A stretch of DNA of 58,122 nucleotides from Candidatus Zhuqueibacterota bacterium (lineage in GTDB: Bacteria; Zhuqueibacterota; Zhuqueibacteria; Oceanimicrobiales; Oceanimicrobiaceae): contig JAJDAE010000088.1 of NCBI GenBank assembly GCA_029262035.1, positions 1-58,122 of the forward strand, in the 5' to 3' direction. This document shows positions 9,575 to 56,895 of the stretch, one piece after another. A program made the position numbers and the translations under genes. The first letter of the stretch is position 1, and every line of letters begins with the position of its first letter. The notes under the pieces were generated by a model. It had not been told where the DNA came from, ran no database searches, and was given only the letters and a program-made list of their open reading frames with translations.

Positions 9575-10702
9575 ATGACTCACGCAGTACTGGAAAGACC
9601 TGATCTGAAGAGCTTATTCAACATCCTGCAGAAGGCCGGTTACACAACCATAGCTCCCACGGTCAGGGATAATGTTATTACCTACGAAAATGTCACAGAT
9701 CAATCAGAGTTGCCAATTGGGATGACTGATGATCAAAAAAACGGCTCTTACCGTTTGAAAAAACGCAAAGACAAAAGCGTGTTTGGCTTTGTGGTTGGGC
9801 CGCAATCCTGGAAGAAGTTTTTGTATCCCGCACGCCTGAAACTTTGGGAAGCTCACCGCAACGGCAAGAGTTTTTCGATTGCAAAGCCGGAAAATGAAGA
9901 AAAGAAGCTTGCCTTTATCGGCGTACGCCCGTGTGAAATGTCCGCTATTTCTATTCAGGACAAGGTGTTTTTAAAAAGCACATTTGTGGATTCGGCCTAT
10001 AGCAGCCGCCGCGAACAGCTTTTTACAGTTATTGTCAATTGCACTGAACCTGGCGGAACGTGCTTCTGTACTTCTATGGATACCGGGCCGCGTGCGAAGA
10101 AAGATTATGATCTTGCGTTGACTGAGGTGGTCAAAAAAGATCAGCATTATTTTCTTGTTGAAATTGGTTCGGATCAGGGAAAAGAGATTGCGAACAAACT
10201 TCCTTTAAAGGAAGCATCGGAAGAACAAGTTAGCGAAGCTGATAAGCGTTTGAATGAAGCTGCCCGGAAAATGGGCAAGGCGCTTAAAACCGATGGCGTT
10301 AAAGACCTGCTTTATGAAAATGCGGAAAACCCACATTGGGAAAAAGTCGCTGAACGCTGCATGACTTGCGCAAACTGTACCATGGTTTGCCCAACCTGCT
10401 TCTGCTCAACGATGGAAGACTCAACGGATCTGAGTGGTGAAATTGCCGAAAGATGGCGGACGTGGGATTCTTGCTTCACCATGGATTTTTCTTACGTGCA
10501 TGGCGGCAGTATTCGCAATTCATCTTCTGCCCGTTACCGGCAATGGTTAACCCACAAGCTTGGCTCGTGGCAAGACCAGTTTGGCACATCGGGTTGTGTT
10601 GGCTGTGGCCGTTGTATTACCTGGTGCCCGGTTGGCATCGATATCACCGAAGAAATCAAGACGTTGCAAGAATGCGACAGCCGTAAAAGTAAGAGTAACT
10701 AA
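9575..10702 (+). CDS. hydB: Group 3b [NiFe]-hydrogenase beta subunit (4Fe-4S dicluster)
   Basis: This is the electron-transfer subunit of the soluble NADP-linked hydrogenase (sulfhydrogenase-type HydB). Of its 375 residues, the N-terminal two thirds match the HydB/AsrA-like region, including [17 protein letters not shown] and [17 protein letters not shown]. Two cluster-binding motifs follow: [16 protein letters not shown] from C262, and [16 protein letters not shown] from C341 with the ferredoxin spacing C341-x2-C344-x2-C347-x3-C351. Gene order beta, (cNMP protein), gamma, delta, alpha parallels archaeal hydBGDA. It starts at an ATG after AGGAAGGAG, downstream of a sigma-54 promoter candidate. 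It moves electrons between the small-subunit clusters and the flavin subunit in the cytoplasm. Confidence 0.92.
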
Positions 10703-10734
10703 ATTAACTGAACTGAACTTTAACCTTCATAATG

Positions 10735-10769
10735 CCGCCTTTTACCGCAAGGTGAAACCGGTAAGGAGG
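10735..10769 (+). promoter_or_regulatory. Hairpin that would mask the ribosome binding site of the next gene
   Basis: CCGCCTTTTACCG (10735-10747) can pair with CGGTAAGGAGG (10759-10769), giving ten base pairs with one mismatch and a two-base bulge. The right arm contains the AAGGAGG ribosome binding site of the gene that starts at 10774. The loop is 11 bases. The pairing is visible in the sequence; translational control is inference. Confidence 0.5.
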
Positions 10770-10773
10770 ACTG

Positions 10774-11229
10774 ATGGAAACATTAAAACAATATTTACAG
10801 GAACATCCGTTTTTTGAAGGGCTTCCCGAAAATGACGTTGACTTACTTGTGGGTTGCGCTAAAAATGTTCGTTTTGAAACCGGAGCACAAATTTTCCGTG
10901 AAGGTGAAAAGGCAAACCAGTTTTTCATTTTACGGCATGGCCGGGTTGCAATAGATATTTATTCCCCGGGAAAGGGGAATATTACCGTTGAGACCCTGGA
11001 TGCAGGCGAGGTTTTCGGCTGGTCGTGGCTTGTTCCGCCTTTCTGTTGGAATTTCGATGCCCGGGTTATTGAACTGACACGTGCAGTGGCAATGGATGCC
11101 GAATGCCTGCGTAAAAAACTAAAAAGCGACCCGCGATTAGGGTACGAGATGTTCAAACGCTTTGCAAAAGTAATGACCCAAAGATTACAGGCACAGCGAG
11201 TCCAGTTGCTTGATGTTTACAGTGCTTAG
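10774..11229 (+). CDS. Cyclic-nucleotide-binding-domain protein without DNA-binding domain
   Basis: The 151-residue protein consists essentially of one cNMP-binding beta-barrel. LKQYLQEHPFFEGLPENDVDLL opens it, GAQIFREGEKANQFFILRHGRVAI forms the core and LDAGEVFGWSWLVPP the phosphate-binding region. The C-terminus is a short helix (AKVMTQRLQAQRVQLLDVY). There is no helix-turn-helix, so it is not a Crp/Fnr transcription factor. Its place inside the hydrogenase operon suggests a ligand-sensing accessory or regulatory subunit for the enzyme. Similar genes occur in other group 3b clusters. A strong ribosome binding site precedes the ATG but may be masked by the hairpin at 10735-10769. Confidence 0.88.
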   Translation: METLKQYLQEHPFFEGLPENDVDLLVGCAKNVRFETGAQIFREGEKANQFFILRHGRVAIDIYSPGKGNITVETLDAGEVFGWSWLVPPFCWNFDARVIELTRAVAMDAECLRKKLKSDPRLGYEMFKRFAKVMTQRLQAQRVQLLDVYSA

Positions 11230-11238
11230 GAGGAACAA

Positions 11239-12063
11239 ATGAATACAGATCCAATGGTTCCTGATTTATTCAGAGTGCAAAAAGTACGAAAAGAAACCCT
11301 TGATACATTTACGCTTGAATTGAGTCCCAAACAAAAAAAGTTCAGGTTTGAACCAGGTCAATTTAATATGCTCTATGTTTCCGGCGCCGGCGAAATACCT
11401 ATTTCAATTAGTGGAAACCCAAATCAACCCGAAAGTCTGATACACACCACCAGAGCAGTTGGCAGCGTGACAAATGCGATGCGCAAACTCAAAGCCGGTG
11501 ATTATCTGGGCGTGCGGGGACCATTCGGCACCAAATGGCCGGTGGATAAAGCAATGGGAGATGATGTTGTTATAATCACCGGTGGTATTGGGTTAGCCCC
11601 TTTACGCCCGGCAGTGTACGATATTTTAGCCAAAAGAGGTCGGTACGGAAATGTGGTGTTGCTTTACGGAGCCAGAACGCCGGAGGATATTCTTTATCCA
11701 AAAGAAATTATGGGCTGGCGCTCACGGTTTGACATGGATGTGCACGTAACGGTGGATCGTGCTGCAGGAAGTTGGCACAGTAATGTGGGCGTTGTCACTA
11801 AATTGATCCCAAAGGCGCCCTTCGATCCCCAGAATACCACAGCCTTTATTTGCGGTCCCGAAGTGATGATACGCTTTACAACGCAGGAACTGAAAAAACG
11901 TGGTTTGAGCGATGATAAAATATATGTTTCTATGGAACGAAATATGAAATGCGCAATCGGGTTTTGCGGTCACTGTCAGTTGGGGCCTTATTTTGTTTGT
12001 AAGGATGGTCCGGTTTTTCGATATGATGAAATAAAACGACTCTTAGAAATCAGGGAGGTGTGA
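11239..12063 (+). CDS. hydG: Group 3b [NiFe]-hydrogenase gamma subunit (FAD/NAD(P), 2Fe-2S)
   Basis: This is the flavin-containing diaphorase subunit passing electrons between the hydrogenase clusters and NAD(P). The 274 residues resemble the ferredoxin-NADP reductase/dihydroorotate dehydrogenase electron-transfer family. It has an N-terminal FAD barrel ([22 protein letters not shown]), the nucleotide-binding [14 protein letters not shown] at about 112-125 and [13 protein letters not shown]. The C-terminal [2Fe-2S] loop has [20 protein letters not shown]. The name follows archaeal HydG of sulfhydrogenase, not the unrelated radical-SAM HydG. The gene lies 9 bases after its neighbour and its stop is followed by the delta gene after 1 base. 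Confidence 0.93.
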
Positions 12064-12064
12064 A

Positions 12065-12838
12065 ATGGCCGCAAAAAAACCAAAACTCGCTGTTTGGAAA
12101 TTCGCATCTTGCGATGGTTGTCAGTTGAGCTTACTCGATTGTGAGGATGAATTGCTTGCCGTTGCCGGTGCAGTTGAAATCGCCAATTTTCCGGAAGCAT
12201 CCCGGGCTATTATTAAAGGGCCGTACGATGTATCCCTGGTAGAAGGTTCTGTCACGACGCCACACGACGCCGAGCGCATTCACAAAGTGAGAAGAGCCTC
12301 GAAATTTTTAATATCGATTGGCGCATGCGCTACTGCCGGAGGCATTCAGGCTTTACGGAATTTTTCGGACGTCAATGAGTTCGTTTCGATAGTTTATGCC
12401 TCGCCTCAGTATATTTCCACGCTTAAACAATCCACGCCAATTTCAGAACATGTGTTTGTCGACTTTGAACTGCGCGGTTGTCCCATCGATAAAGGACAAC
12501 TGCTTGAAGTTATCAATGCGCTTTTGAACGAGCGTAAACCCAATATCCCGACGCATAGCCTTTGCCTGGACTGCAAACGCCAGGGGCTGCCGTGTGTGAT
12601 GGTTTCCCAGGGTACGCCCTGTCTCGGACCCATAACTCAGGCAGGTTGTGGGGTGCTTTGCCCTGCATTCGACCGCGGCTGTTATGGTTGTTTCGGTCCC
12701 ATGGAATCTCCAAATGGCAAAGCATTGATTGAAAAGTGGCAGGAGATGGGCGCAGACGATGCAGAAGTTCTGAGATCGCTCAGAACGTTTAATGCCTGCG
12801 CAAATGCTTTTGAGAAAGAGAGTAGAAAATATGAATAA
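12065..12838 (+). CDS. hydD: Group 3b [NiFe]-hydrogenase delta (small) subunit
   Basis: This small subunit carries the Fe-S clusters between the active site and the beta/gamma subunits. It has 257 residues. The proximal-cluster motif [15 protein letters not shown] gives C16 and C19. [15 protein letters not shown] follows, then a Cys-rich C-terminal block with [29 protein letters not shown] and RGCYGCFGP. There is no Tat signal, in keeping with a cytoplasmic group 3 enzyme. It overlaps the large-subunit start at 12831 by 8 bases, which supports equal, coupled synthesis. Confidence 0.94.
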
Positions 12839-14141
12839 GAATGGAAAGACCAAAAAAGCCAGAAACATCAAAGTAGATTACCTCGCGCGTGTTGAAGGCG
12901 AAGGCGCGCTCCATGTTAAAATTAAAGCCGATGATTTGTTGGATGTGAAGCTCAAGATTTTTGAACCGCCAAGATTTTTTGAAGCGTTTTTGCGGGGCCG
13001 AAAATACACCGAGGCGCCGGATATTACAGCCAGGATTTGCGGCATTTGTCCCATCGCCTACATGCTTGGCGCATCCCATGCCATGGAGGATATTTGTGGC
13101 GTTAAAGTAACCGGGCAGCTCCGGGAGTTACGCCGGTTAATTTATTGTGGCGAGTGGATTGAGAGCCATGTTCTGCATATTTACATGCTGCACGCTCCGG
13201 ATTTTCTCGGTTATGAAGATGCTATAAGAATGGCGAAAGATTTCCCCGAAGCCGTTGAAAATGCGCTGCGCCTAAAGAAAATTGGTAATCAGATCATGAC
13301 AGTTTTGGGCGGACGTGAAATTCATCCTATTAATATGAAGATAGGTGGTTTTTATCGCGTGCCGACCAAAAAAGAGTTGGCTGTGCTTGTGGATGAGTTG
13401 AAGTGGGGATTAGAAACGGCGATTGCAACCGTGAAATTAGTTTCAACTTTTGACTTCCCTGATTTTGAACAGGACTATGAATTCGTTGCGCTAAAACACC
13501 CGAATGAATACGCTATCGCCGAAGGCAACCTGATTTCGAACAAAGGCTTCAATGTACCCATCAGCCAATACGATGACTATTTGATTGAAGAACATGTTGA
13601 GCATTCCACTGCTTTGCACACGCACATCCAAGGCAGAGATGGTTGCTTCCTTGGCCCCATGGCAAGGTATGCTCACAATTTTAAGCAGTTAACGCCTACT
13701 GCAAAACAACTTGCTAAAGAAGCCGGACTGGGTAAGGTTTGCAAGAACCCATTCAAGAGTATTATCGTTCGGGCAGTCGAGACAGTTTATGCTTTTGAAG
13801 AAGCTCTGAGAATTGTGCAAAACTATGAACAACCGGATAAACCGGCAATAGAGATTGAGCCCAAAGCGGGTACAGGCTATGGCGCCACCGAAGCGCCTCG
13901 CGGCATTTGTTACCACCGTTATACGATAGATGATGAAGGTATCATTCAAGACGCAAAAATTGTATCACCCACGGCGGTTAATCAAAAAACAATTGAAAAT
14001 GACCTGATGAGTTTTATTCCCGCACGTCTTGATTTGCCGGATGAAAAACTACAATGGCAGTGTGAACAGGCAATACGAAATTACGACCCATGCATTTCCT
14101 GCTCAACTCATTTTCTTAAACTAACGGTGGACCGACAATGA
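12831..14141 (+). CDS. hydA: Group 3b [NiFe]-hydrogenase alpha (large) subunit
   Basis: This is the catalytic subunit that holds the NiFe(CN)2CO centre. I place the start at the ATG at 12831, giving 436 residues; an in-frame ATG at 12792 lies well inside the small-subunit gene. The L1 motif is RICGIC (C70, C73) and the L2 motif is DPCISCSTH (C421, C424, H427). The nine residues after H427 form the tail that the maturation protease removes, and that protease is encoded immediately downstream. The DPCxSC form and the gene neighbourhood place it in group 3b. The stop overlaps the protease gene by 4 bases. Confidence 0.95.
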
Positions 14142-14641
14142 ATCAAAACCCGGAAATTACTTTTATCGGTGTTGGCAACCGGTTTCGCAGCGATGATGCG
14201 GTAGGGCTGCAAGTTTTGGATATTTTAAGTTCCGGCTGTTCCATTCGGGCTGAATATTTGGAAGCTTGGGGCGAAGGCGCGACTCTAATTGATATGATAG
14301 AAGGCAAGAACATCGTATTTATTTTTGATGCGGTTTCTTCGGATTCTGAACCGGGGACTATTTTTCGCTTTGATGCTATTTCAGAAAAAATTCCGACTAA
14401 ATTTTTCAACTACTCCACCCACGCATTTAGCTTGGCGGAAGCCATTGAATTAGCACGCGTGCTCGGAAAACTGCCATCCTCTTTGATTGTGTACGGAGTT
14501 GAAGGCGCTGTTTTTGAGGCAGGTAGTTTGTTGAGCAGCAGAGTCGCAAAAGCTGTGTCCAAGGTCGTTAAGCGAGTCAGTGTCGAGTTGGCCGATTTGG
14601 ATAAAACGAAATACGAACTTGAAGAGGATAGCCATGCATGA
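14138..14641 (+). CDS. [NiFe]-hydrogenase maturation endopeptidase (HyaD/HycI family)
   Basis: The 167-residue protein starts with the family pattern [19 protein letters not shown] at about 6-24, including the Asp that binds nickel in the precursor. The second block is [19 protein letters not shown] near 60-80, with the expected Asp, and the third is [13 protein letters not shown]. It would trim the short C-terminal tail of the large subunit once nickel is inserted. ATGA overlaps link it to the large subunit and to HypA, so the genes form one translational unit. Confidence 0.92.
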
Positions 14642-14894
14642 GATGTCATTGCTGGCTGATTTAATGAAGAAAATCGAAACCATTGTTCGCGAAAATAAAG
14701 CAGAAAAAGCCGTGAAAGTCAATGTGCGATTAGGCGCGTTGTCACAAATTTCTGCGGGACATTTTCGGGAGCATTTCAACCATGCGGTACCGGGTACTGT
14801 TGCCGAGGGCGCTGAGTTGGACGTAGTTGAACTGGAAAATGCCAAGGATCCTCAAGCTCAGGATTTTATTTTGGACAGCGTTGAGATAGAATAG
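14634..14894 (+). CDS. hypA: HypA-like nickel chaperone lacking the zinc domain
   Basis: The 86-residue protein starts [10 protein letters not shown], keeping the N-terminal Met-His-Glu nickel site of HypA. It continues through the HypA core (VNVRLGALSQISAGHFREHF, VAEGAELDVVE). Standard HypA is about 113 residues with a CxxC...CxxC zinc loop at that point. Here the chain goes directly from the LDVVELENA strand to a final FILDSVEIE strand, and the protein contains no cysteine at all. It is therefore a shortened HypA, not a frameshift product, because both flanking segments are in frame. The start at 14634 overlaps the protease stop. The hypBCDEF genes are not in the window. Confidence 0.85.
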   Translation: MHEMSLLADLMKKIETIVRENKAEKAVKVNVRLGALSQISAGHFREHFNHAVPGTVAEGAELDVVELENAKDPQAQDFILDSVEIE

Positions 14895-15098
14895 TTTATT
14901 TTCGGTATGCCAAATGCAAATTGCTGTGCCAAGACATTTGCCTTACGTTTTAGTCTTGACGGCAAGTGAGTGGTTGATATGTTCAGCGGGGGAGCAACTG
15001 CTGCGTATTTGTCAAGAGCTTATGAATTGATTGCGAGTTATGATAATTTTTATTACTTATGAAAACAAATAAGTCCATTTTTTTGAATAGGTATTTCA

Positions 15099-15416
15099 AT
15101 GAGTAATGAAGTTAAAGTTTCAAAGCTAAAGAATTTGGTTGAATATCAAGTTGGTAATGTAGTTAGCAAAGTTCTGATGAAAGCGCCGAATGGCACGGTA
15201 ACATTGTTTGCTTTTTCGGCGGGCTCAGAATTGAGTGAGCACACGGCTCCTTTTGAAGCATTGATAAATGTTGTGGATGGTGTCGCTGAAATTGGAGTGG
15301 ATGGTACGGGACATGAGGTTGAGTCTGGAGAAGTCATTAACTTGCCTGCGAATATTCCACATTGGGTTAAGGCAATAAAGGATTTTAAAATGATCCTGAC
15401 CATGATTCGTGATTGA
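15099..15416 (+). CDS. Small cupin-domain protein
   Basis: The 105-residue single-domain cupin contains FSAGSELSEHTAPFEALINVVDGVAEI (cupin motif 1 region, with one clear His) and SGEVINLPANIPHWVKAIKDFKMILTM (motif 2 region, with PHWV). Such proteins bind a metal and may be enzymes, sensors or detoxification proteins; the substrate cannot be deduced. It stands alone between the hydrogenase operon and the convergent idr-like operon, behind a 204-base gap without a clear promoter. Confidence 0.85.
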   Translation: MSNEVKVSKLKNLVEYQVGNVVSKVLMKAPNGTVTLFAFSAGSELSEHTAPFEALINVVDGVAEIGVDGTGHEVESGEVINLPANIPHWVKAIKDFKMILTMIRD

Positions 15417-15476
15417 AAGCGAGGGACGTTCAGGCTCTACTTTGTGAATTACAATTTTGGTGTTCCGGCGAGATTC

Positions 15477-16055
15477 TTATCTGTGCAATTTAATTTCAAC
15501 CTCGACTGTCGCGCCGTCTTTCACAACAACCTCCACCGGATCGCCTTTGTAGCGCTCATTCCAGATGATGAGTTTGTGCTTTCCGGCTGGGATATTTTCA
15601 ATGATAAAATTCCCGGCGTCATTGCTTCTCCCGAAAAATGGATTCTGCAAAACAAAGACGTAGGCCAGCATAGTTGGATGAAGTTTACATAGCTGGGTAT
15701 AAATTCCGAGTTTGTCAAATTTGTGGATTAGTTTACCGCCCTGGGGTTTTGTACCCAAATCATATTTTTCATTGTCCGGTGAATAAACATTGTGAACTGT
15801 CGGATCGGAATTTAGAAATGTGACCGTTGCACCTTTAATAATTTGCGCAAATTTTGGAATGAAGGTACTGCCTTTCTGAGCAATACTGATGTCTTCCGGC
15901 TTCCAATCCCCATTCACGTTTTCGAGATACACAACGGTATTTCTAATCCAGCGTTTCTTCTTATGAATGATTTTGCCTTTTATGGATCCGCCGGCAAATA
16001 GGCAAGTCGTCGTTAACAGCAGCAAAATACCGGTCAGTTTATTCTGGAATCTCAT
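15477..16055 (-). CDS. Exported cupredoxin-like blue-copper protein
   Basis: The 192-residue protein has an N-terminal signal peptide (about 1-22). The cupredoxin fold at about 23-135 contains a full type-1 copper ligand set: H88 in DPTVHNVYSP, then C123-x2-H126-x2-M129 in QLCKLHPTMLAYV. A small carboxypeptidase-regulatory-like beta domain follows (AGNFIIENIPAGKHKLIIWNE), as in proteins labelled 'methylamine utilization protein'. It is the last gene of the idr-like operon, 200 bases after the molybdoenzyme and separated from it by a long palindrome. It could be an electron carrier to the periplasmic enzyme; that role is inferred. Confidence 0.85.
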   Translation of the reverse strand: MRFQNKLTGILLLLTTTCLFAGGSIKGKIIHKKKRWIRNTVVYLENVNGDWKPEDISIAQKGSTFIPKFAQIIKGATVTFLNSDPTVHNVYSPDNEKYDLGTKPQGGKLIHKFDKLGIYTQLCKLHPTMLAYVFVLQNPFFGRSNDAGNFIIENIPAGKHKLIIWNERYKGDPVEVVVKDGATVEVEIKLHR

Positions 16056-16072
16056 TCTTTTCCTTTTTGCCT

Positions 16073-16250
16073 GAATAATTCATTGCCACCAAGGCACAAA
16101 GACAGTAAGGGGACACAAAGATTTAAAAATAAAAGTGTTATGAAAAATTTTGCTCCATAGTAATTTACTTTTAATTTTCAAAACACCTTCTTCCATAACT
16201 TTTTGAATCTTTGTGACTTAGAGTCTTCGTGGCAAAATTCATGAATAATG
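16073..16250. repeat. Long imperfect palindrome (MITE/REP-like) inside the idr-like operon
   Basis: The arm starting near 16073 (TTCATTGCCACCAAGGCACA...GACACAAAGATT) pairs with the arm ending near 16250 (AATCTTTGTGACT...GTCTTCGTGGCAA...TTCATGAAT). Weaker complementarity continues inward (AAGTGTTATGAAAA against TTTTCAAAACACCTT) toward a centre near 16160. The arm type, with CACAAAG and CCACGAAG words, is a common dispersed bacterial intergenic repeat. It fills the gap between the molybdoenzyme and the cupredoxin genes. Confidence 0.65.
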
Positions 16251-16254
16251 TAAG

Positions 16255-18921
16255 TTATATAATCGCTCTCGATTTAAACGTCATTTGTTGAAATGAGTGT
16301 TTATATGGCGACTCACCGATTTTTTTAATTTTGCCGACGCCAAGCTTGAAGCGATAATTGCCTGATATTGGATCGGGCACTCGTGGTGTGAGCACATTGG
16401 CCGGATTTTCCGGATTCAGAAAATACATAAAACTCGTTCCTTCTTTCGGAACATCCATCACCATGGCAACTGCTTTTACTTTTGCAGATACAAATTTAAT
16501 ATGTCCGTCTTTCAAAAGGTTTTTAAACAACAAGTCGTCGATATCTCGCCCATAAAATCCTGAGATTTGCACAGGTACGCGGTCACTTGCCACGCTGACA
16601 TAATCACCACTTTCAACGCCAAGCTTTTCGGCATCTTTGGGATGAATTTCAATGAAATTTTCAGGGAAGCGGTTTTTGATAAAATCACGACGTTCGACAT
16701 CATCAAAACAAGATTGCCAAATTTCATTAATTCTGCCGTTGAGAATCCAAATCTCTCCATCTCTCGGTTTGATGTGATCATAAAAATCTCCAAATAAATA
16801 CCAGGGAGATTTCATGAAATTGGCTTTGCCGGTATGGGTCTTGAATTTGGTTAACCATTGGCGCCAGACAGTTTCTTTTTCAGGTCCGGTTTCGGGAAGC
16901 TTTAGGGTTGAGTCGTGCAGCCGTTTGGTTCCAACCAATTTGCCGCCCTGCATGCGAATTGGCCCCTGAATGCCCGTGGTACCAAACTCACGTAACAGTT
17001 CATGACCGCGTTTGCCTTGTTTTTTTGCCAGCTTAACCAACGGTTGATAGTTGAGAATACCCCCGCGACCGAATCGGCCTGCTTCTTCAAACACATCATT
17101 TGAATCTTGCCAATCGTAACCGCTGAAACCCATTCTCCTGGCAATCCCGGCCACAATCCACCAGTCAGGTTTTGTTTCTCCGGGTGGATCATAAAATTTT
17201 GAATAGAGCCGGATTCGCCTTTCACCATTCGCCCTGGTAAAATCACACTCACCCCAGGTAGCGGCAGGTAAAATGATGTCAGCGATTTCGGTACCAATAT
17301 TATTTCTCAAATAAATATCCTGATCCACCATAACCATGCCGCCGCTGTCCACCCGCTTTTTGAAAACTTCGAGCACATGTTGAACATTGGTGCTTTCAAG
17401 CTGATTTGGATTTCGGGTTATATGATTTCTGAACACCTCGGCCAGCTCTCCGGAACCACACATTGCTGCTGTCCAAGTGGTGCCAACCACATAAGCAAAA
17501 CGGACCTTTCCAGCCTGAACCCAGCGGTCGAGATCCAGCGGTTTTCGCCGCCTGCCGCCAAATTTTTCAGGCGACTCCGTTACAGGGTATTTCCCACCTT
17601 TCATGCCGCCGCGCTGATGTCCGCCAAAGCGGGAAATCATTTGCCCGGGGCGATTGCCGGCGCCGCATAAAATACCAAGTGAAGCAAAAGATGATGTGTT
17701 GGTATAATTATTTGACCAGTAATTGCCCTTTTCAACACCAAATGATGTTTTAGGCCGGGAGCCATCCGGATTTGGTTTTGCCATCATTTCGGCTGCCCAC
17801 TCGATATCTTCCGCATCAACCCCGCAGACCTCAGCAGCATAATTTAACTCAGACTCTTTTTGACTCAGAATCCACTTTTTATAATCCTCAAAACCTTTGG
17901 TTTGGAACTGCCCCCAGGTAGTCCGCCACTGCCAATCGGTGTTTCTTGTTCCCTGGCCAAAACCAGAATCAGTCTCCCATTTATTATTTGTATATTTTTT
18001 AATCCATTCACTATCTTGCCAACCGTTTTCAAGAATAATTCTGGCCAGCGCCATTTGCAAAATGGTATCGGTTCCGGGGTTAAGCTGCAGGTGAAGCCCT
18101 CCGTTTTCTTCAGCAAACGCAACACCGGTCGTTTTACGTGGATTTATAAAAATTACTTTTTGCCGGTGTTCGGCGATGGCTTTCATGATCCATTCGTTCC
18201 AGAGGATGGTTTTTGTTTCAAATGGGTCAGTCCCCGAAATAACCAATGTGTCAGCTAAATACCAATCTTCATAAGAGGCAGAAAAGTTATCGATTCCCAC
18301 ATCGCGGAAACCCGGGGTAGATGGCGCGTTGCTCGGGTTGTCATGAAAAGCAAAGGCAATGGTACCGATATTTCTAAAAGCGAATTTGGTTAGGGCATAA
18401 GTGTTTTCGAAGTATTGATACGAAAACATTTTTTGAGCCCAGGAATGTGTACCGTACTTCTTGATGACATATTGTGATGTCTCAGCAAAAATGGTGAAAG
18501 CGTCATCCCAGGAAATTCGCTCAAGTTTGCCATTTACCCGAATCTGCGGATATTGCAATCGGTCACGGGTGGGTTTCTCCACATTAAAACATTTCTGCGC
18601 AATAGCGCCGCCGCGAATAGAATGATTCCCACCTTTGTTGACAACCTCAATTTCATGGTCGGGAGCTACAATTACATGATGGGGTTTGCCTTCGTGTTTA
18701 ATGATATTATGCATATTGGGACTAACCCAGCCGCCTTGATCTAATCCTACAGGCAGGTCGATTCCCAAAGCATTATCCTTTGCTTTAATCCCGCCTTTCT
18801 GCCCTACTGGCCAACGGTAAATTTTATAGCCGCAAGCGACAACGCAATAATCACAGCAAGTGGTTAAAACATCTGCATTCTTCGGCGGCAGAGGGACTGA
18901 ATCTGTGTGGTTTTTAATCAT
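16255..18921 (-). CDS. idrA: Molybdopterin oxidoreductase, iodate reductase catalytic subunit (IdrA-like; AioA superfamily)
   Basis: The 888 residues are collinear with arsenite oxidase AioA. The [3Fe-4S] motif is C23-x2-C26-x3-C30-x70-S101, the exact AioA spacing with Ser in the fourth place. GTDPFETKT, HNxP-type and NGRINEIWQS pterin-binding blocks and the FKSR C-terminus are also shared. By eye, the AioA segment holding the arsenite-binding His195 and Glu203 reads PSTPGFRDVGIDNF here, with no His, whereas the Arg-His pair is kept (R431 and H435 in RFGGHQ). Together with the Rieske and two diheme peroxidase genes upstream, this points to iodate reductase (iodate to iodide, periplasmic) rather than arsenite oxidation. 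It has no Tat signal of its own, as for AioA, which is exported with its Rieske partner. Confidence 0.78.
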   Translation of the reverse strand: MIKNHTDSVPLPPKNADVLTTCCDYCVVACGYKIYRWPVGQKGGIKAKDNALGIDLPVGLDQGGWVSPNMHNIIKHEGKPHHVIVAPDHEIEVVNKGGNHSIRGGAIAQKCFNVEKPTRDRLQYPQIRVNGKLERISWDDAFTIFAETSQYVIKKYGTHSWAQKMFSYQYFENTYALTKFAFRNIGTIAFAFHDNPSNAPSTPGFRDVGIDNFSASYEDWYLADTLVISGTDPFETKTILWNEWIMKAIAEHRQKVIFINPRKTTGVAFAEENGGLHLQLNPGTDTILQMALARIILENGWQDSEWIKKYTNNKWETDSGFGQGTRNTDWQWRTTWGQFQTKGFEDYKKWILSQKESELNYAAEVCGVDAEDIEWAAEMMAKPNPDGSRPKTSFGVEKGNYWSNNYTNTSSFASLGILCGAGNRPGQMISRFGGHQRGGMKGGKYPVTESPEKFGGRRRKPLDLDRWVQAGKVRFAYVVGTTWTAAMCGSGELAEVFRNHITRNPNQLESTNVQHVLEVFKKRVDSGGMVMVDQDIYLRNNIGTEIADIILPAATWGECDFTRANGERRIRLYSKFYDPPGETKPDWWIVAGIARRMGFSGYDWQDSNDVFEEAGRFGRGGILNYQPLVKLAKKQGKRGHELLREFGTTGIQGPIRMQGGKLVGTKRLHDSTLKLPETGPEKETVWRQWLTKFKTHTGKANFMKSPWYLFGDFYDHIKPRDGEIWILNGRINEIWQSCFDDVERRDFIKNRFPENFIEIHPKDAEKLGVESGDYVSVASDRVPVQISGFYGRDIDDLLFKNLLKDGHIKFVSAKVKAVAMVMDVPKEGTSFMYFLNPENPANVLTPRVPDPISGNYRFKLGVGKIKKIGESPYKHSFQQMTFKSRAII

Positions 18922-18929
18922 AATTGGCT

Positions 18930-19499
18930 CTACTTAATACCGGGGTTTTTAACACCACCAAAAATTAAACCTGCAACGCCGGTTGCATAAATATCATTTT
19001 TTTCAATTTTTAGAACGATTTGAGGTAAACTCTCAAGTGCATGACCGGCGACAACCATGCCGTGCCGGGTCAAGTCGAATGTTGTTAAATGTGAAGGACA
19101 TGGGCCGGCTACTTTGTGGGCTGGTTTATAAGATCGGCTGAGAAGTCCTCCCATATGCGTGCACAAACTACTGAAGGCGACAATATCGTTATTTGAACCT
19201 ACACCGCCACCGGCTTTTTCGCCTAACTTTACCAAAAAACATTGTCCATAGGTCGAGTCGTCGTTTGGATATAGAAAGTCAACCGGTGTGTCAGTTTGTA
19301 GTTCTGATAAAGAAACGATTTTTTTGTGGGGATATTCTGCATATTTGGCGCTTGAAGCAAAAGCAGCTGAAACGCCAAATATTGAACTGAGTGCCACCGT
19401 AGAAACCGCACCGGCGCTATAAAACAAAAATTGTCTGCGGTTCACGCATGTGGGTAAACGGGTTTCCATATTTTCAACTTTTATCATTTCTTCTTTCAT
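18930..19499 (-). CDS. idrB: Tat-exported Rieske subunit, IdrB/AioB-like
   Basis: The 189-residue protein has a Tat signal (N-R21-R22-QFLFYSAGA followed by a hydrophobic stretch to about 48). Its Rieske fold has ligands C113 and H115 (CTHMGG) and C134 and H137 (CPSH). Classical Rieske proteins have a disulfide between CTHxGC and CPCH; here those positions are G118 and S136, so it is absent, which usually lowers the potential. The pattern CPSHLTTFDL...GLIFGG is the Aio/Idr type. It would carry the catalytic subunit through the Tat system and pass electrons to it. Its start overlaps the upstream stop by 4 bases, and the molybdoenzyme starts 8 bases after its stop. Confidence 0.85.
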   Translation of the reverse strand: MKEEMIKVENMETRLPTCVNRRQFLFYSAGAVSTVALSSIFGVSAAFASSAKYAEYPHKKIVSLSELQTDTPVDFLYPNDDSTYGQCFLVKLGEKAGGGVGSNNDIVAFSSLCTHMGGLLSRSYKPAHKVAGPCPSHLTTFDLTRHGMVVAGHALESLPQIVLKIEKNDIYATGVAGLIFGGVKNPGIK

Positions 19500-20683
19500 T
19501 GCGCTTCCTCCACTTTGAGGCCGTTACCACGATCGATACCGTATGGCGGCAACTGAGGAATGTCCATAAGTATTTCTTCACCGCTCAGGCTTTCTAAAAA
19601 TGCCAGGAGTTGTCCTTTTTCTTCTTCCGACAAACCGAGCGGTTTTAAAATATCAGTTTTTGTGCTATGTCCAAAAATTTTGATTTGATCTTCTCCGCCT
19701 CCGTCATTATAAAAATCGATAACTTCTTCAAGTGAGAAGAAAACCCCGTTGTGCATATATGGCGGTGTAAAAACCAGGTATCGTAAAGAAGGTGTCCGAA
19801 ATTTTCCCATATCCTGATGCCGTTTACTGCCGTAATACAGACCAAGATCAGTTTTGTTGCCTCTGTAAATATCCTCCGAAACGCCTTTGGCATATTGCTG
19901 AAATCTGAAGGTAATCTGCTTTAAAGCATCTTCTTCGAAAACGGGATTCTCCGGCACTCCCAAGTTATAATATTTTTGATCTGTTACCAGAGCTCCATTA
20001 TGGCATTTGATACAATTCGCTTTTCCTTCGAACAATTCCATGCCTTTAACAGCATCATCGGACATGGCAGTTTTATCGCCGAGAATATATTTATCAAAAG
20101 GAGTATCGCGCTGCACCAAGGTTCTCTCGAATGCAGAAATTGCACGCCACGCATCAAATATTTCGGGGCGGTCAGTGCCGAATACATTTTTAAATCGTTT
20201 AATATATTCAGGGATTTGTCGCAACCGTTCCTCCATTAAATCGTCTTCGCCATTACCGGCGACTGCTCCCCGCGCTGCACTTCGCGCCTGTCCTTCCAGG
20301 CTGCGTGCTGAACCGGCCCGGAAAAATTTATCGAGATAGGCAACATTGACAATTGTTTGACAATTCCGCCAGTGGGAGGTACCGGCATAACCACGGCATA
20401 TATCCGATCCATCCTGCCAGCCAATGTTTGGCTTGTGACAATCGGAACAGGCAATGGAAACATCACCGCCGAGTCGTGCATCAAAAAAGAGTAATTTCCC
20501 CAGTTCAATTTTTTCAGATGTTTGTAAATTGTCCGCTGGGATTGGCGGTGCCGGCAGCGCAGCGAGGGGAGGGATAAGCGCTTTATCACTCCTCAAGGGA
20601 GTGCCGCTCGTTGCCATAAGACTTTGAAAAGCAACCGGGACAAGGCAAATCCACAGCGTAAAGTTAAATATTTTTTTGAGCAA
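19496..20683 (-). CDS. Diheme cytochrome c peroxidase-like protein (IdrP-type)
   Basis: This is a CcpA/MauG-family protein with two CxxCH sites (CSDCH at about residue 79 and CIKCH in the second half) and the typical GKFRTPSLRYLVFTPPYMHNGVF and LEEVIDFYNDGGG segments. I choose the TTG at 20683 as start (395 residues). It has GGGAG eight bases upstream and begins a clean signal peptide (LKKIFNFTLWICLVPVAFQ). The longer frame from 20734 would place 17 non-hydrophobic residues before the signal and overlap the preceding gene. Paired with the next entry, it forms the two-peroxidase hallmark of idr loci, where such proteins are proposed to remove reactive oxygen or iodine intermediates. Confidence 0.85.
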   Translation of the reverse strand: MLKKIFNFTLWICLVPVAFQSLMATSGTPLRSDKALIPPLAALPAPPIPADNLQTSEKIELGKLLFFDARLGGDVSIACSDCHKPNIGWQDGSDICRGYAGTSHWRNCQTIVNVAYLDKFFRAGSARSLEGQARSAARGAVAGNGEDDLMEERLRQIPEYIKRFKNVFGTDRPEIFDAWRAISAFERTLVQRDTPFDKYILGDKTAMSDDAVKGMELFEGKANCIKCHNGALVTDQKYYNLGVPENPVFEEDALKQITFRFQQYAKGVSEDIYRGNKTDLGLYYGSKRHQDMGKFRTPSLRYLVFTPPYMHNGVFFSLEEVIDFYNDGGGEDQIKIFGHSTKTDILKPLGLSEEEKGQLLAFLESLSGEEILMDIPQLPPYGIDRGNGLKVEEAQ

Positions 20684-20712
20684 TATTTTTTCTCCCGGAA
20701 ACCCTATATTTG

Positions 20713-21810
20713 CTAATTTTTGACGGAACGCCAATTCTCAATAAGCTGGTACTCATACATCGGTGGAATTTCTACCGAAATTTTATCCCCACTCAGACTT
20801 TCTAAAAAAGCAACCAGTGCTTTTTTTTCTTTGATGGAAAGTTTTAATGGTTTTAATTCCGAATGTTTGCCGCCGCCGTTGTTGTAAAATTCAATGACTT
20901 CCTCCAAAGTGGCAAAAATACCATTGTGCATATATGGCGAGGTAATAGCAACCTCTCGCAAGGAAGGCGTCAAAAATTTCCCCATATCTTCGTCCATTTT
21001 ACTCACCGAAAAAAAGCCGGGATCCATTCTAAGGTTTTCAAAATTTGGGACACCCAAAGATTTCAACACAGATCGAAATGCGGTGGCCCGCTCAGGATCG
21101 GTAAATAACTCAGGATGCTCGGCAACCGCAATTTTATGAGGTTTGAAATCGGAAAACATGGGACCATTGTGGCAGTTAATGCAGCCAGCTTTACCTTTAA
21201 ACAGCATCATGCCTTTTTGGGCTTCTTTGGATAGCGTGCCTTTATCAAAAGGAACATTTTTTGAAACAAGTGTTTGTTCAAAAGCAGCTACTGCTTTTAA
21301 GGCTCGCCCGAAGCTGGGTTCGGCGCCAAAAATTTTGTTAAATAGTTCTACATATTCAGGGACTTGTTTCAGGCGCTCCTGCATCAACCGGCCATCGAGG
21401 TTCATGAAATGTGTTTCTGTGATTTTATCGCGGACTTGGGTAGCCGGGTCTTTTCCAGTCAACCGACCGTCCCAATAAAAATAGCGCTTGTGAGCCATGT
21501 TTAAAACAGTCTGGGTATTTCGAAAATATTTGGACCCCGGATATGCCAGAGACAGGTCCTTCCCATCAGACCAGCCATTTTGGGGTTGGTGACAAGAACC
21601 ACAGCTGATACTGGCGTCGCCACTCAACCTGACATCAAAAAACAGATGGCGACCTAATTCAACCATGTGGGGATTTGGCGCTTTTAATTGTGGCAGGCGT
21701 CCAATATCCGGGTACTTTGCTTTTTTGCTTTCTCCCGGTTTAGATAATGCCATTAAACCTAAGGAGATTATCAGGGTATATTTGCCGGTTCGCTTTACTA
21801 AATTTTGCAT
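20713..21810 (-). CDS. Diheme cytochrome c peroxidase-like protein (IdrP-type), first gene of operon
   Basis: The 365 residues include an N-terminal signal (about 1-24) and heme sites C70-x2-C73-H74 (CGSCH) and C210-x2-C213-H214 (CINCH). The family segments RLSGDASISCGSCHQP, YFYWDGR and SPYMHNGIFATLEEVIEFYNNGGG are present. It resembles the downstream peroxidase across its length but is clearly diverged, so this is an old duplication. No good ribosome binding site precedes the ATG at 21810. A TATATT box lies at 21817-21822, so close to the ATG that a leaderless or near-leaderless message is possible. It is divergent from the histidine kinase gene. Confidence 0.87.
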   Translation of the reverse strand: MQNLVKRTGKYTLIISLGLMALSKPGESKKAKYPDIGRLPQLKAPNPHMVELGRHLFFDVRLSGDASISCGSCHQPQNGWSDGKDLSLAYPGSKYFRNTQTVLNMAHKRYFYWDGRLTGKDPATQVRDKITETHFMNLDGRLMQERLKQVPEYVELFNKIFGAEPSFGRALKAVAAFEQTLVSKNVPFDKGTLSKEAQKGMMLFKGKAGCINCHNGPMFSDFKPHKIAVAEHPELFTDPERATAFRSVLKSLGVPNFENLRMDPGFFSVSKMDEDMGKFLTPSLREVAITSPYMHNGIFATLEEVIEFYNNGGGKHSELKPLKLSIKEKKALVAFLESLSGDKISVEIPPMYEYQLIENWRSVKN

Positions 21811-22043: not shown

Positions 22044-24320
22044 ATGAATTGGATTCCAAAAGATCCACTCGCCAAAATTGATATAAAATATAAACTTCCA
22101 CTTGGTTTTGTCTGCCTGTATCTAGTCGTGTTCAGTATCGGGGGCTATTTTATTATCAATTCTGTTTATGCCCCTCTCAACCGGGAAATTTTACTACGCC
22201 TGCAAAGTGAGTCGTTGGCGCAAGCGGCAGTATTTGAGCAAAAACTTGAGATGCTTGCCCGACGCTCGGAAGATTTTGCTTCCGATGGTTTTATTCGAAC
22301 TCATGTCCATAACCACGTAAAGAGAGAAAATGCGCCAGGTTCTCCCGATGAATTTCGGCAGCACCTTCTTGTCAATAAACTACCTCTTGTGGAGGAATTC
22401 GTGGATTTGCAGGTTTTTGACATGCAAGGAAATCAAATCATCAGCGCTCTCGAAGATTTTTATGATATCCAGCCGGAATTGCTGGAAAAACAACAACAGC
22501 TTGGTGCAATTATCACTCCCGGTGAATCAGTCAGCTTTCCTTCCACGGCCATTATCACGCCACTATGGGATATAAAAATGACCAACCAGATCGGTTATCT
22601 GGTTTGTGTTGTCAACCTGGTTTCAGTTATAAACAATACTGCTCTGGATTACGAAGAAGGCATTTCCGAAGCGAGAATAGAAAAATATTTAACCTTTGTT
22701 GATCAAAAAGGTGTAGCCATTGAAGTTCCATGGTGGTATCTGAACCGGCTTCATCCCGAAGAAAATAGGCCGGCAGATGACGAGGGGATAGGGATAAGGG
22801 TTTTAACTGAGAGAGATGCAGTGAAACCCGAGCTGCACGTTGGGCGGCACACGTGTCAAAACGGAAAAGAGATGTTCGGTCAGAGTTACGCATTGAGGAA
22901 TGCCGGGTGGAGTACACTCATTGAATTGAATGCTGCGGATGCGGTGGCGCCTTTAAGCATTCTGGAAGGCAACCTTTTGGGAGTTGCGCTGGCGATTGCT
23001 GTGACGACATTGGTTCTGTTTTTCTTCCCAATTCAATATCTTGTCAAACCGTTGAGCGAGTTACAGCGAATGGCTCTGCGTGTAAAAGAGGGTGACTTTT
23101 CTGCAAGGAATAAGATCGACTCTCACGATGAGTTTGGGCAGCTGGCCCGCACATTTAATATAATGACCGATGCTATCCAGGAACGTACCACCCGGCTGGA
23201 GCAAACCGCTTCCGATTTAAAACGACAGGAAAGTGAAATACGCATTCAGCATAACCGCTTGCAGGCGGTGGTGCATTCCATGGGAGACGGGCTTATTCTC
23301 CTGAATCACCACGGTGAGATTGTACTTTCAAACCAGGCGGCGCAGCCCATTATCCAGAAATTGAATAGTAGCGAAAGGCCAGGTAGTATCCGAAAATGTG
23401 AAAGACATGAGCCCGATACTGAACAGTGTGTCAGTTGTTTGCTTAACCGGCAATACACGACGTCATGTGAGCTGAATCTGAATGACAAGATTTATGAAGT
23501 TATTTCTTCCAAACTGCCTTCTCTAAACGGCGCCTCCGGGAAAGTTTTAGTTGCCCGTGATATCACCGAAAGAGAACGAATGAATGAAAAGCAGGTTCAT
23601 CAGGAGCGACTGACTGTTCTAGGTAAAACTGCAGCAGTTGTGGCGCACGAATTAAATAATCCGCTGGCGGCGATTTCTATGTATAATCAGATGATGCAAG
23701 AGGAATTACCGAAGAGCTCCACATTTCATGAACATGTGGATGTTATCCGGCGGAACACCGAAACTTGCCGAAAAATTATCAGAGAGCTTTTGGATTATGC
23801 CCGCGTCCCGGAACCCAAGTCCGGGGAAATTAATTTAAACAATATTTTACAGGATGCTTTAAATTTGTTAAGTCCATTGCATAAAAAAAAGAAACTCTCA
23901 ATTGAAAAAAAATTAAAGACAGAAAACCTGCTTCTGTGGGGAGATGCGTCACATTTGCAACAGGTGTTTGTAAATTTGCTGGATAATGCGATGCAGGCGA
24001 TTAACCCGAAGCAGGGGAAAATTCAAATCACAGTCGGCGAATTTTCGAACGCTGCGCGGATTTATGTGGACATTCAGGACAATGGAGCTGGTATTTCATC
24101 AGAAAATCAGACCGAAATATTTGAGCCGTTTTTCACCACAAAAAGTTCGGGAGGAACAGGTCTGGGATTACCCACTGCCAAGCGAATCATCAATGCGCAT
24201 GGTGGTGATTTAATTTTGTTAAAATCAGAAAATAGAAAGACTGTTTTCAGAGTATTGCTGCCACGCCGGAACAAAATGAAAAACCCGCAGCATTCCAGCT
24301 TAAAATTAATGGGCGTTTAA
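22044..24320 (+). CDS. Membrane sensor histidine kinase (dCACHE-like, HAMP, Cys-rich PAS)
   Basis: The 758 residues start with a transmembrane helix (about 18-42) and a large periplasmic sensor of about 270 residues. A second helix (about 308-330) and HAMP (332-385) follow. A PAS domain (about 400-510) contains C452, C462, C465 and C475 (CERHEPDTEQCVSC). Then come HisKA with H535 (VVAHELNNPLAA) and an HATPase (NLLDNAMQAI, GGTGLGLPTAKRI). This is a NtrB/ZraS-like layout. The gene for the sigma-54 activator follows, and the nar operon lies downstream. The clustered PAS cysteines may bind a metal or Fe-S centre or form a redox switch. The ligand is unknown; nitrate, iodate or redox state are reasonable guesses from position. 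Confidence 0.9.
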   Translation: MNWIPKDPLAKIDIKYKLPLGFVCLYLVVFSIGGYFIINSVYAPLNREILLRLQSESLAQAAVFEQKLEMLARRSEDFASDGFIRTHVHNHVKRENAPGSPDEFRQHLLVNKLPLVEEFVDLQVFDMQGNQIISALEDFYDIQPELLEKQQQLGAIITPGESVSFPSTAIITPLWDIKMTNQIGYLVCVVNLVSVINNTALDYEEGISEARIEKYLTFVDQKGVAIEVPWWYLNRLHPEENRPADDEGIGIRVLTERDAVKPELHVGRHTCQNGKEMFGQSYALRNAGWSTLIELNAADAVAPLSILEGNLLGVALAIAVTTLVLFFFPIQYLVKPLSELQRMALRVKEGDFSARNKIDSHDEFGQLARTFNIMTDAIQERTTRLEQTASDLKRQESEIRIQHNRLQAVVHSMGDGLILLNHHGEIVLSNQAAQPIIQKLNSSERPGSIRKCERHEPDTEQCVSCLLNRQYTTSCELNLNDKIYEVISSKLPSLNGASGKVLVARDITERERMNEKQVHQERLTVLGKTAAVVAHELNNPLAAISMYNQMMQEELPKSSTFHEHVDVIRRNTETCRKIIRELLDYARVPEPKSGEINLNNILQDALNLLSPLHKKKKLSIEKKLKTENLLLWGDASHLQQVFVNLLDNAMQAINPKQGKIQITVGEFSNAARIYVDIQDNGAGISSENQTEIFEPFFTTKSSGGTGLGLPTAKRIINAHGGDLILLKSENRKTVFRVLLPRRNKMKNPQHSSLKLMGV

Positions 24321-24432: not shown

Positions 24433-25848
24433 ATGAATTTCCAGACAAGTCCTTCTCCTTATGATCTTGCTAACCTTAATGTGCTGGTGGTAGATGACCA
24501 GGAAGACGTACGCGGCGGATTGAAACGTTTGATTTCCTCCCTTGGGTGTCAGGTTGAAACCAGCTCTTCCGCTGAAGATGCATTGCAGGCGCTGAAGGCA
24601 AAGCCTGTAGATATAGTTTTTACTGATTTGAAAATGGGTGGCATGTCTGGGGAAGAATTGCTTAAAGAAATCAATCAGCGATGGACCGATATTGTGGTGG
24701 TACTCATCACCGGCCACGGTACCATTGAGCTGGCGGTGGCGTGTCTGCAAAATGGTGCGTCACATTTTCTTACGAAACCCTTTGATAATAAAGAAATCCT
24801 GGCATTTGTTGAAAGAGTCGGCTATGGGGTTCTGGCGAAACGTCAAGTCAAAAATCAGAGTAAAAGGAAAAAGGGGCAATCATTTATTGCTGTCGGAAAT
24901 AAAATGCGTCGGGTGTTGGAGTTAGTGGAGCAGGTGGCGCAACGCAAAGTACCGGTTCTTATCGAAGGCGCCAGCGGTACGGGCAAAGAACTGGTGGCAC
25001 GTGAAATTCATAACCGCAGTCCTGTATCTGAAAAGCCTTTTTTAGCCATTAATTGTATCGCGTTACCGGATTCTCTACTTGAATCTGAATTGTTCGGTTA
25101 CAAGAAAGGCGCTTTTACCGGCGCACATAAAGATTCCACCGGCCTGTTTGAACAAGTGCAAGGCGGTACCATTTTTTTGGATGAAGTTTCTTCCATGTCA
25201 CCGTTGTTCCAGGGAAAACTATTACGGGTTCTGCAGGAAAAAACCGTCCGTCCGTTGGGCAGCAATGCTGAAAAACACGTGGACTTTCGGGTCATTGCTG
25301 CCAGCAATCAGGGCTTAAAAAAGCTGGTTGAAAAGGGGGATTTCAGAGAAGATCTATACTATCGCCTGCAGGTGATGAATATTTTTTTACCAGCCTTGAA
25401 TGAGCGTCAGGAATGCATCCCTGCTTTAACGAGCTACTTTTTAAAACAGGCGTCATCGGAGTTTTTTTATGAGGAATATCAGTTGCCGAAAATATCCCCG
25501 GCAGCCATGGATGCACTAAGTAACCACACCTGGCCCGGTAATATTCGGCAGTTGGAAAATACAATCCAGCGTGCATTAATCATAAACAAAGGCGAGACCA
25601 TTTTGCCTTCCCATCTGGGCTTATCAGATGAAACGTCTGTTTCAGAATCCCTTCTGGAACAGGAATTGACCTCCTATGAAGAAAGCAAAAAACAGGCGAT
25701 TGAAGCCTTCCAGAGCGAGTATGTGCAGACCATTTTGCAGCGTACCAATGGCAACATTTCCCATGCCGCCGAAATGTGTGGCTTGACCCGGGCTGCTTTA
25801 CAACGCATCATGCGCAAGCTGGAGCAGGAGCAGATTCGTACCAATTAA
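24433..25848 (+). CDS. Sigma-54-dependent response regulator (NtrC family)
   Basis: The 471 residues have a receiver domain at about 14-130 with phospho-acceptor D65 (IVFTDLKMGG). An AAA+ domain at about 150-385 has Walker A GASGTGKE (179-186) and the sigma-54 contact loop GAFTGA (226-231). The C-terminal Fis-type helix-turn-helix is GNISHAAEMCGLTRAALQRIM. It is the cognate regulator of the upstream kinase. Because it needs sigma-54, the -24/-12 sites before nar (26154) and the hydrogenase (9492) are natural candidate targets. The inverted repeat at 26015-26032 could be its binding site. These target assignments are inferred. Confidence 0.95.
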   Translation: MNFQTSPSPYDLANLNVLVVDDQEDVRGGLKRLISSLGCQVETSSSAEDALQALKAKPVDIVFTDLKMGGMSGEELLKEINQRWTDIVVVLITGHGTIELAVACLQNGASHFLTKPFDNKEILAFVERVGYGVLAKRQVKNQSKRKKGQSFIAVGNKMRRVLELVEQVAQRKVPVLIEGASGTGKELVAREIHNRSPVSEKPFLAINCIALPDSLLESELFGYKKGAFTGAHKDSTGLFEQVQGGTIFLDEVSSMSPLFQGKLLRVLQEKTVRPLGSNAEKHVDFRVIAASNQGLKKLVEKGDFREDLYYRLQVMNIFLPALNERQECIPALTSYFLKQASSEFFYEEYQLPKISPAAMDALSNHTWPGNIRQLENTIQRALIINKGETILPSHLGLSDETSVSESLLEQELTSYEESKKQAIEAFQSEYVQTILQRTNGNISHAAEMCGLTRAALQRIMRKLEQEQIRTN

Positions 25849-26220: not shown

Positions 26221-27093
26221 ATGCCAAAAGTCACTTCAAAAAAATGTATAACCGGAATCAATTGGGCAGCGTCAATATTGACTTCCGTATTTTTTCTACT
26301 TCTTATTTGTACATCGGTTTCGGCTCAGGTTCCGGCTGACTATTTCAAACAAAACTGTGCAAGCTGCCACACAATTGGTGGAGGCAGGTTAACCGGTCCC
26401 GATTTAAAGAACGTATCTGAAAGGCAATCAAGGGATTGGCTGGTTAACTGGACGCTCGACCCGGAAGGCATCCTCAAGAGTGGTGACCCTTATGCGGTTA
26501 AATTACAAAAAGAAGCCCGTGGAGCAGTCATGACTCGCTCACCCGGAATGACCCGCGTTCTGTCGGCAGCATTACTTGATTTAATTGATGCGGAATCAAA
26601 ATTAGAAAAATCACAATTTGCAGGCACCCAAATTAGTGATCGCCCGCTTCTGGCTGAAGATATTGAAGAGGGCCGGATGCTTTTTATGGGAGCAACAAGA
26701 TTAAAAAATAACGGTCCGTCCTGTATCGGCTGTCATACCGTCAACAGCATGAAAGGTTTGGGCGGCGGACGACTGGGATTGAATTTGACCCGGGCATACG
26801 CAAGATTAGAAGGCAGAAAAGGTTTGTCAGCCTGGTTGGTCTCTCCACCCAGTTTGATGATGAATCCGATTTTTAAGAAATATCCTATCGATGAAGAAGA
26901 AGTGCTGCCACTGGTTGCATTTCTCAAGAATGAAACTGAAATAGATGAACCGGAAAACAAGACAGCCATGATTAATTTTTTACTATATGGCATGGGTGGT
27001 GCAGTGGTTCTTCTGGTTATATTTGACCTGCTTTGGAACAAACGCTTTCGCGGCGTACGGCAGCCAATGGTCAAAGAAAGTTATCACAGCTAA
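26221..27093 (+). CDS. narC: Membrane-anchored diheme cytochrome c (NarC-like)
   Basis: The 290-residue protein has an N-terminal signal or anchor (about 15-36). Heme sites are C46-x2-C49-H50 (CASCH) and a second CIGCH near residue 170. A C-terminal transmembrane helix (about 246-266) is followed by a short basic tail. It is the first gene of the nar operon, directly before narG. The same position and two-heme layout are known for NarC of Thermus thermophilus, where it works with NarGHI in electron transfer and assembly. It may link NarGHI to the cytochrome pool fed by ACIII. Confidence 0.85.
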   Translation: MPKVTSKKCITGINWAASILTSVFFLLLICTSVSAQVPADYFKQNCASCHTIGGGRLTGPDLKNVSERQSRDWLVNWTLDPEGILKSGDPYAVKLQKEARGAVMTRSPGMTRVLSAALLDLIDAESKLEKSQFAGTQISDRPLLAEDIEEGRMLFMGATRLKNNGPSCIGCHTVNSMKGLGGGRLGLNLTRAYARLEGRKGLSAWLVSPPSLMMNPIFKKYPIDEEEVLPLVAFLKNETEIDEPENKTAMINFLLYGMGGAVVLLVIFDLLWNKRFRGVRQPMVKESYHS

Positions 27094-27142
27094 TTGAATA
27101 GTCCTAAGAATTTTACTAGCAAATTTATTTTAAGGAAATAGA

Positions 27143-30781: not shown

Positions 30782-30818
30782 TTTAACTCTAAACAATTAC
30801 TATAAAAGGATAAATATA

Positions 30819-32309
<1,491 letters not shown>

Positions 32310-32311
32310 CC

Positions 32312-32923: not shown

Positions 32924-32947
32924 AAAAGAACTTTACGGATTAAAGCC

Positions 32948-33679: not shown

Positions 33680-33767
33680 TTAATATAATCGATGCAGCTC
33701 ATCAAAAAATAATGAATCAAGTTTTTAACATTTGTTTTGATAAAAAAACTATTTCCGGAGCCACGCT

Positions 33768-35315: not shown

Positions 35316-35368
35316 ATCAACGTTGAAATATCAATTCAAGAAATTAAACCAAAATCGGAGAGTAACAA

Positions 35369-36991: not shown

Positions 36992-37009
36992 ATTTAATTT
37001 ATTTATAAA

Positions 37010-37133: not shown

Positions 37134-37178
37134 TGAAAATTAAATAATTCAGGTAATATTAAAAAAGCAGCATTAAAG

Positions 37179-37835: not shown

Positions 37836-37862
37836 AAACAGGTGTTGGGTGTTAGCTTTTAG

Positions 37863-42599: not shown

Positions 42600-42600
42600 T

Positions 42601-56886: not shown

Positions 56887-56895
56887 TTTATCCTC

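Follow-up and report, generated by a model that had tools for sequence, protein, structure and literature searches.

Does the five-gene locus at positions 21810-15477 of the window, the 58,122-nucleotide stretch JAJDAE010000088.1, encode an iodate reductase (Idr) or an arsenite oxidase (Aio), and what role could the copper protein at its end play? The window belongs to a metagenome-assembled genome (MAG) of the candidate phylum KSB1 (5.3 Mb, 96% completeness), and the preliminary description of the locus reported, on one strand and tightly spaced or overlapping, two diheme proteins (P1 and P2), a Rieske protein (B) with a twin-arginine translocation (Tat) signal, a molybdoenzyme (A) and an added cupredoxin. 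All five are real open reading frames, encoded by the minus strand in the order given. P1 and P2 overlap by 22 nt and P2 and B by 4 nt; a gap of 8 nt separates B from A, and one of 199 nt lies between the idrA stop codon and the start of the cupredoxin gene. We consider it probable, judging from gene content and relationships, that the locus is an iodate reductase operon of a KSB1 bacterium, acting in the periplasm with the cupredoxin as the likely electron carrier.

By the preliminary description's own criterion, a tree with A firmly inside AioA would have refuted its reading; the tree came out in favour of that reading. Built from 81 proteins, 70 of Idr type and 11 of Aio type, it separates the two groups, with support of 100 for each in the Shimodaira-Hasegawa-like approximate likelihood ratio test (SH-aLRT), and the window protein (IdrA) falls into the fully supported Idr group, outside the AioA clade; a scan of genome contigs for related proteins listed the best 80 matches. 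Within the Idr group, the window protein clusters with proteins from KSB1 and from a Desulfobacterales MAG (SH-aLRT 100), in a branch nested between those of Azonexus/Thiothrix and Rhodobacteraceae. IdrA is 55-83% identical to Idr-type proteins overall, including 55-57% to those of Proteobacteria, namely the A proteins from plasmid-borne P-P-B-A clusters (Azonexus hydrophilus NCP973, Vibrio THAF190c) and a Thiothrix plasmid protein, versus ~29% to the AioA proteins of organisms known to oxidise arsenite (e.g., NT-26 and Sinorhizobium M14). Identities of the two diheme proteins to their counterparts at other idr loci are 45-75% for P1 and 47-81% for P2.

The sequence motifs and active-site residues, two tests independent of identity and tree, lead to the same assignment, and each published Idr sequence feature open to examination is present at the locus. 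The CX2CX3CX70S and CXHX18CX2H motifs published for IdrA and IdrB of Azoarcus DN11 are matched exactly by A and B of the window. As expected of Idr, P1 and P2 each contain two CX2CH motifs, IdrB carries the Tat signal and no signal peptide of its own was seen in IdrA, the export signals being judged by eye. The AioAB enzymes (NT-26, Thermus and Sinorhizobium M14) belong to the same molybdoenzyme subfamily and likewise combine a [3Fe-4S] large subunit with a Tat-exported Rieske protein, but differ in several features. The Rieske spacing is X18 in 73 of 84 IdrB, as opposed to X13 or X15 in 10 AioB. Glu203 (A. faecalis numbering), which we take to be one of the AioA residues that bind arsenite, is conserved in 11/11 AioA and in 0/84 IdrA; the window protein has Ser at the equivalent position, and Idr proteins differ from one another in this active-site loop, with Ser, Asp or Ala. 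Furthermore, the HN and HQE motifs of AioA are replaced across Idr by HD and HQR, with a single Cys exception. The aioX, aioR and ars genes that flank true aio loci (the aioXSR/ars context) are absent from the window setting. P1 and P2 are conserved among loci of Idr type, and the aio loci examined lack them.

In the preliminary description, the order P-P-B-A was taken as unusual; in fact, it is the normal one, found in Azonexus and, across phyla, at almost every locus on a long enough contig (over 80 loci were examined), an exception being L020, in which P1 is located after A. This is in line with the published statement that idrP1P2 always precedes idrAB (PMC8801600). Because the block recurs at almost every related locus whose flanks are long enough, it is no chance arrangement in the window. 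The core cluster is of a known kind, that of the studied strains Pseudomonas SCT, Denitromonas IR-12, Azoarcus DN11 and Aromatoleum TC-10, with which the window shares the order, the motifs and the two diheme proteins; with Azoarcus DN11 it also shares AtoS/AtoC-like two-component genes nearby. By sequence, the window locus is a confirmed new member of the Idr family, in a KSB1 host, and the same cluster is present in two KSB1 relatives.

Deletion of idrA in Denitromonas abolishes growth on iodate (PMC8692401). Iodate is also reduced by three marine alphaproteobacteria that carry idr, among them Rhodobacteraceae, and iodate induces the idr genes of Roseovarius azorensis (PMC11445184). By 2022, all confirmed iodate-growing strains fell within one small clade, in which a cytochrome c551 gene often lies beside idr (PMC8801600). 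We infer that the Azonexus/Thiothrix branch is a likely neighbour of the confirmed strains, because its layout (histidine kinase, response regulator, P1, P2, B, A, cytochrome c, moaA) matches theirs; the searched literature yielded nothing relevant on Azonexus NCP973. The window differs from the studied strains in that it has the cupredoxin where they have cytochrome c551 or moaA, in a kinase sensor that bears no relation to the one at the Azonexus cluster, in the lack of a clear sigma-54 site and in its KSB1 host.

The cupredoxin itself received no cupredoxin name from Pfam or NCBIfam, the match being confined to the CarboxypepD_reg-like C-terminal half. Nevertheless, His88, Cys123, His126 and Met129, the full type-1 copper set, are invariant across 22 homologues, and the AlphaFold model (mean predicted local distance difference test score, 91.3) matches the solved structures of a Nitrosopumilus cupredoxin, pseudoazurin and plastocyanin. 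Thus, the added cupredoxin is genuine, with all four ligands, but not peculiar to the window: one or both of two forms of the family occur within 4-5 kb at 31 of the 67 idr loci with enough flank to be assessed, although these loci are not independent, given that the trait changes about 10 times on the tree and many of the absences come from near-identical Alphaproteobacteria. The type 1 form lies just past A in the window and in L015, L016 and L017, and farther away in L019, L020 and L043, whereas the type 2 form (~250 aa) lies just ahead of P1. The cupredoxin-bearing loci are mostly outside the experimentally confirmed clade. The whole family has about four copies in the 5.3-Mb window genome, from which we estimate that about one or fewer would be expected by chance in 67 loci. 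The close subtype (69-73% identical) is found, among same-family genomes, only in the three with idrA, and directly downstream of that gene. In this respect it differs from the 'Methylamine utilization protein'-type cupredoxins, which share the combination of a cupredoxin with a CarboxypepD_reg-like domain and a distant similarity: the window subtype reaches 69-73% identity only with idr-linked copies in its own family. No mention of an idr-linked cupredoxin was found in the searched literature on iodate and cupredoxins, and a recurring copper partner of idr seems to be undescribed.

The nearest named relatives at the locus are the KSB1 MAG OFTM72 (L015) and OFTM356 (L017), which match the same-family genomes G027 and G026. 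Together with the Desulfobacterales MAG HyVt-363 (L016), they encode IdrA 76-83% identical to that of the window and a type-1 cupredoxin 70-180 nt downstream of idrA. Unlike the window, all three have a second cupredoxin ahead of P1 and, past the cluster, GltD-like, Rieske, cytochrome b and (cytochrome c) genes likely to encode a quinol oxidoreductase; OFTM72 and OFTM356 also have a porin, and none of these genes is found beside the window idr. Such a set, usually with the cytochrome c gene, lies near idr at seven loci, which represent four phyla or more (L015 13861-17702, L016 13352-18639, L017 11720-17223, L019 475-4615 onward, and L049, L053 and L054 at ~13000-17200 onward), and in all seven a cupredoxin stands beside the cluster as well. 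The Denitromonas cluster has been reported to lack a quinone oxidoreductase (PMC8692401). No close orthologue of the idr-linked cytochrome b was found in the window genome (best match, 48%). In L016, IdrA (9989-12658) is 76% identical to the KSB1 protein and is accompanied by the same cupredoxin and quinol oxidoreductase, a likeness that suggests the genes have moved from one phylum to another. An IdrA 58% identical to that of the window is encoded by a MAG that bears the label Euryarchaeota archaeon (L055 1497-4283), either through transfer into an archaeon or through a binning error.

The organism would probably reduce iodate as follows. IdrA, with a molybdenum bis-pyranopterin guanine dinucleotide (Mo-bisPGD) cofactor and the [3Fe-4S] cluster, would be exported together with IdrB through the Tat signal of the latter, and IdrAB would reduce iodate in the periplasm, with hypoiodous acid as the first product, followed by disproportionation, as in published models. 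P1 and P2 would remove the by-product peroxide (published model, PMC8692401). A chlorite dismutase family gene, part of the Pseudomonas SCT model, was not found in the window genome or in the two relatives, which fits the published model that does without one. The cupredoxin may be the electron carrier to Idr, that is, a soluble one-electron carrier that passes electrons from quinol on to IdrB, or else to P1/P2, in the role of cytochrome c551. The path would then run from quinol through alternative complex III (ACIII), encoded ~20 kb away, or through a bc complex, to the cupredoxin, IdrB, IdrA and iodate.

Several points weigh against this account. The functional bracketing is indirect; no tested member of the KSB1/Desulfobacterales branch was found in the searched literature. 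Four elements that flank idr in the nearest relatives are missing in the window, namely the bc-type quinol oxidase, a second cupredoxin, the sensor kinase of idr type and the sigma-54 site, so that regulation and electron supply in the window are guesses. The link between the cupredoxin and IdrB is putative.

One alternative is an arrangement in which the enzyme is a true iodate reductase but receives electrons from a c-type cytochrome, the cupredoxin serving in copper delivery, in protection against peroxide or hypoiodite, or structurally through its CarboxypepD_reg domain. The frequent cytochrome c551 gene of the confirmed clade (PMC8801600), the c-type cytochrome of the Azonexus cluster, the occurrence of the cupredoxin family in multiple copies and in other contexts, and the many alphaproteobacterial idr clusters without it all speak for this possibility, to which we give somewhat less than an even chance; it accounts less readily for a complete type-1 copper site in a fold that matches electron carriers, for linkage repeated at two distinct positions in many phyla and for the co-occurrence of cupredoxin and bc-type quinol oxidoreductase at all seven loci with the latter. 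It appears unlikely that in this deep branch the Idr-family enzyme acts naturally on some other oxyanion or iodine species, such as bromate, chlorate or an organic N- or S-oxide, and reduces iodate as a side reaction: no tested member of the branch was found in the searched literature, the loop near position 203 varies and neighbouring DMSO-reductase families switch substrates, but the branch is nested in the Idr group with an unchanged P1P2BA set, suggesting the same chemistry, and many of the hosts come from the sea, where iodate occurs. Finally, that A and B are AioAB, with two peroxidase genes adjacent by accident and the cupredoxin as an azurin-like acceptor, is highly improbable, and this arsenite oxidase assignment is rejected on tree, motifs, active-site residues and gene context, even though both subunits score above the cut-off of the arsenite-oxidase-type NCBIfam models (TIGR02693, arsenite_ox_L, for A; TIGR02694, arsenite_ox_S, for B), AioA and AioB are their best solved-structure matches and an azurin-type protein is the classical AioAB acceptor. 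NCBI names IdrA 'arsenate reductase (azurin) large subunit' (L012 8971-11649, similar records and the Azonexus plasmid copy), because TIGR02693 cannot tell Idr from Aio.

Table 1. Genes of the idr locus and other annotated features of the window (CCP, cytochrome c peroxidase)
Feature	Positions	Strand	Properties
idrP1-like, CCP family diheme protein, 365 aa	20713-21810	-	N-terminal hydrophobic signal, two CxxCH, CCP_MauG
idrP2-like, CCP family diheme protein, 412 aa from TTG at 20734 (start uncertain)	19496-20734	-	Two CxxCH, CCP_MauG
idrB, Rieske [2Fe-2S] small subunit	18930-19499	-	Tat-type NRRQFL signal, CXHX18CX2H, Pfam Rieske
idrA, molybdopterin catalytic subunit, 888 aa	16255-18921	-	CX2CX3CX70S [3Fe-4S], Pfam Rieske_3 and Molybdopterin
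Cupredoxin 'type 1', exported, 192 aa	15477-16055	-	Type-1 Cu ligands, C-terminal CarboxypepD_reg-like domain
[NiFe]-hydrogenase-like operon	9575-14641		Resembles cytoplasmic type; NAD(P)-binding subunit and maturation protease
HAMP/PAS histidine kinase	22044-24320	+	Divergent to P1; possible regulator
Sigma-54-dependent response regulator, AtoC/NtrC type	24433-25848	+	Possible regulator of idr or nar
ACIII-like genes actA, actB, actC, ActD, actE, actF	37179-44863	+	Candidate quinol oxidase feeding periplasmic carriers; ~20 kb from idr

The preliminary description also drew attention to the nar, ACIII and hydrogenase genes around the locus (Table 1). This setting was not found at any other idr locus, the KSB1 contigs being short, and a comparison of its proteins with those of other idr loci returned only two weak stray matches; hence, these neighbours do not belong to the idr module. 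Positions 26221-45676 (plus strand) encode in a row a cytochrome c, narGHJI, two NarK, actABCDEF and a hemerythrin RIC-type protein, which by gene content is a compact nitrate respiration cluster. At 56344-57973, a SCO-like protein, a small Cys-rich lipoprotein and a cytochrome c were recognized by eye, possibly for copper-protein maturation.

As regards regulation, kinases beside 12 idr loci (L012, L014, L016, L018, L020, L028, L029, L030, L035, L043, L045 and L047) have a homologous N-terminal sensor part, with ~27-75% pairwise identity across many phyla, which is a candidate for an idr-specific domain that perhaps senses iodate. The window kinase was considered for such a role and rejected, its sensor part being unrelated to that of these 12; a search of the window genome for the idr-type kinase revealed no orthologue over the full length. 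Upstream of other idr operons, a sigma-54-type site (TGGCACG-N4-TTGCW) is perfect in L045, L047, L050 and L093 and nearly so in L012, L016 and L062, which fits the linked sigma-54 regulators. No convincing -24/-12 site precedes P1 in the window, although such sites are strong in some relatives. The kinase/regulator pair of the window may serve nar or substitute for the idr regulators.

Through its effect on marine iodide, iodate reduction influences how much ozone is lost at the sea surface; to our knowledge, its electron donor is unproven and the cultured examples are Proteobacteria. Overall, the core of the KSB1 locus is ordinary and its copper partner moderately interesting. With this locus, the candidate phylum KSB1 joins the likely reducers of iodate, and automatic annotation as 'arsenate reductase (azurin)' hides Idr enzymes. 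As a tentative generalization, for which we see roughly one chance in three, one or two dedicated cupredoxins, in some cases with a bc-type quinol oxidoreductase, would belong to the idr module and replace cytochrome c551 in many phyla beyond the cultured reducers, with the window representing a shortened form in which ACIII supplies the cupredoxin. Recurring next to idr across many phyla, the copper carrier offers a concrete candidate for the donor.

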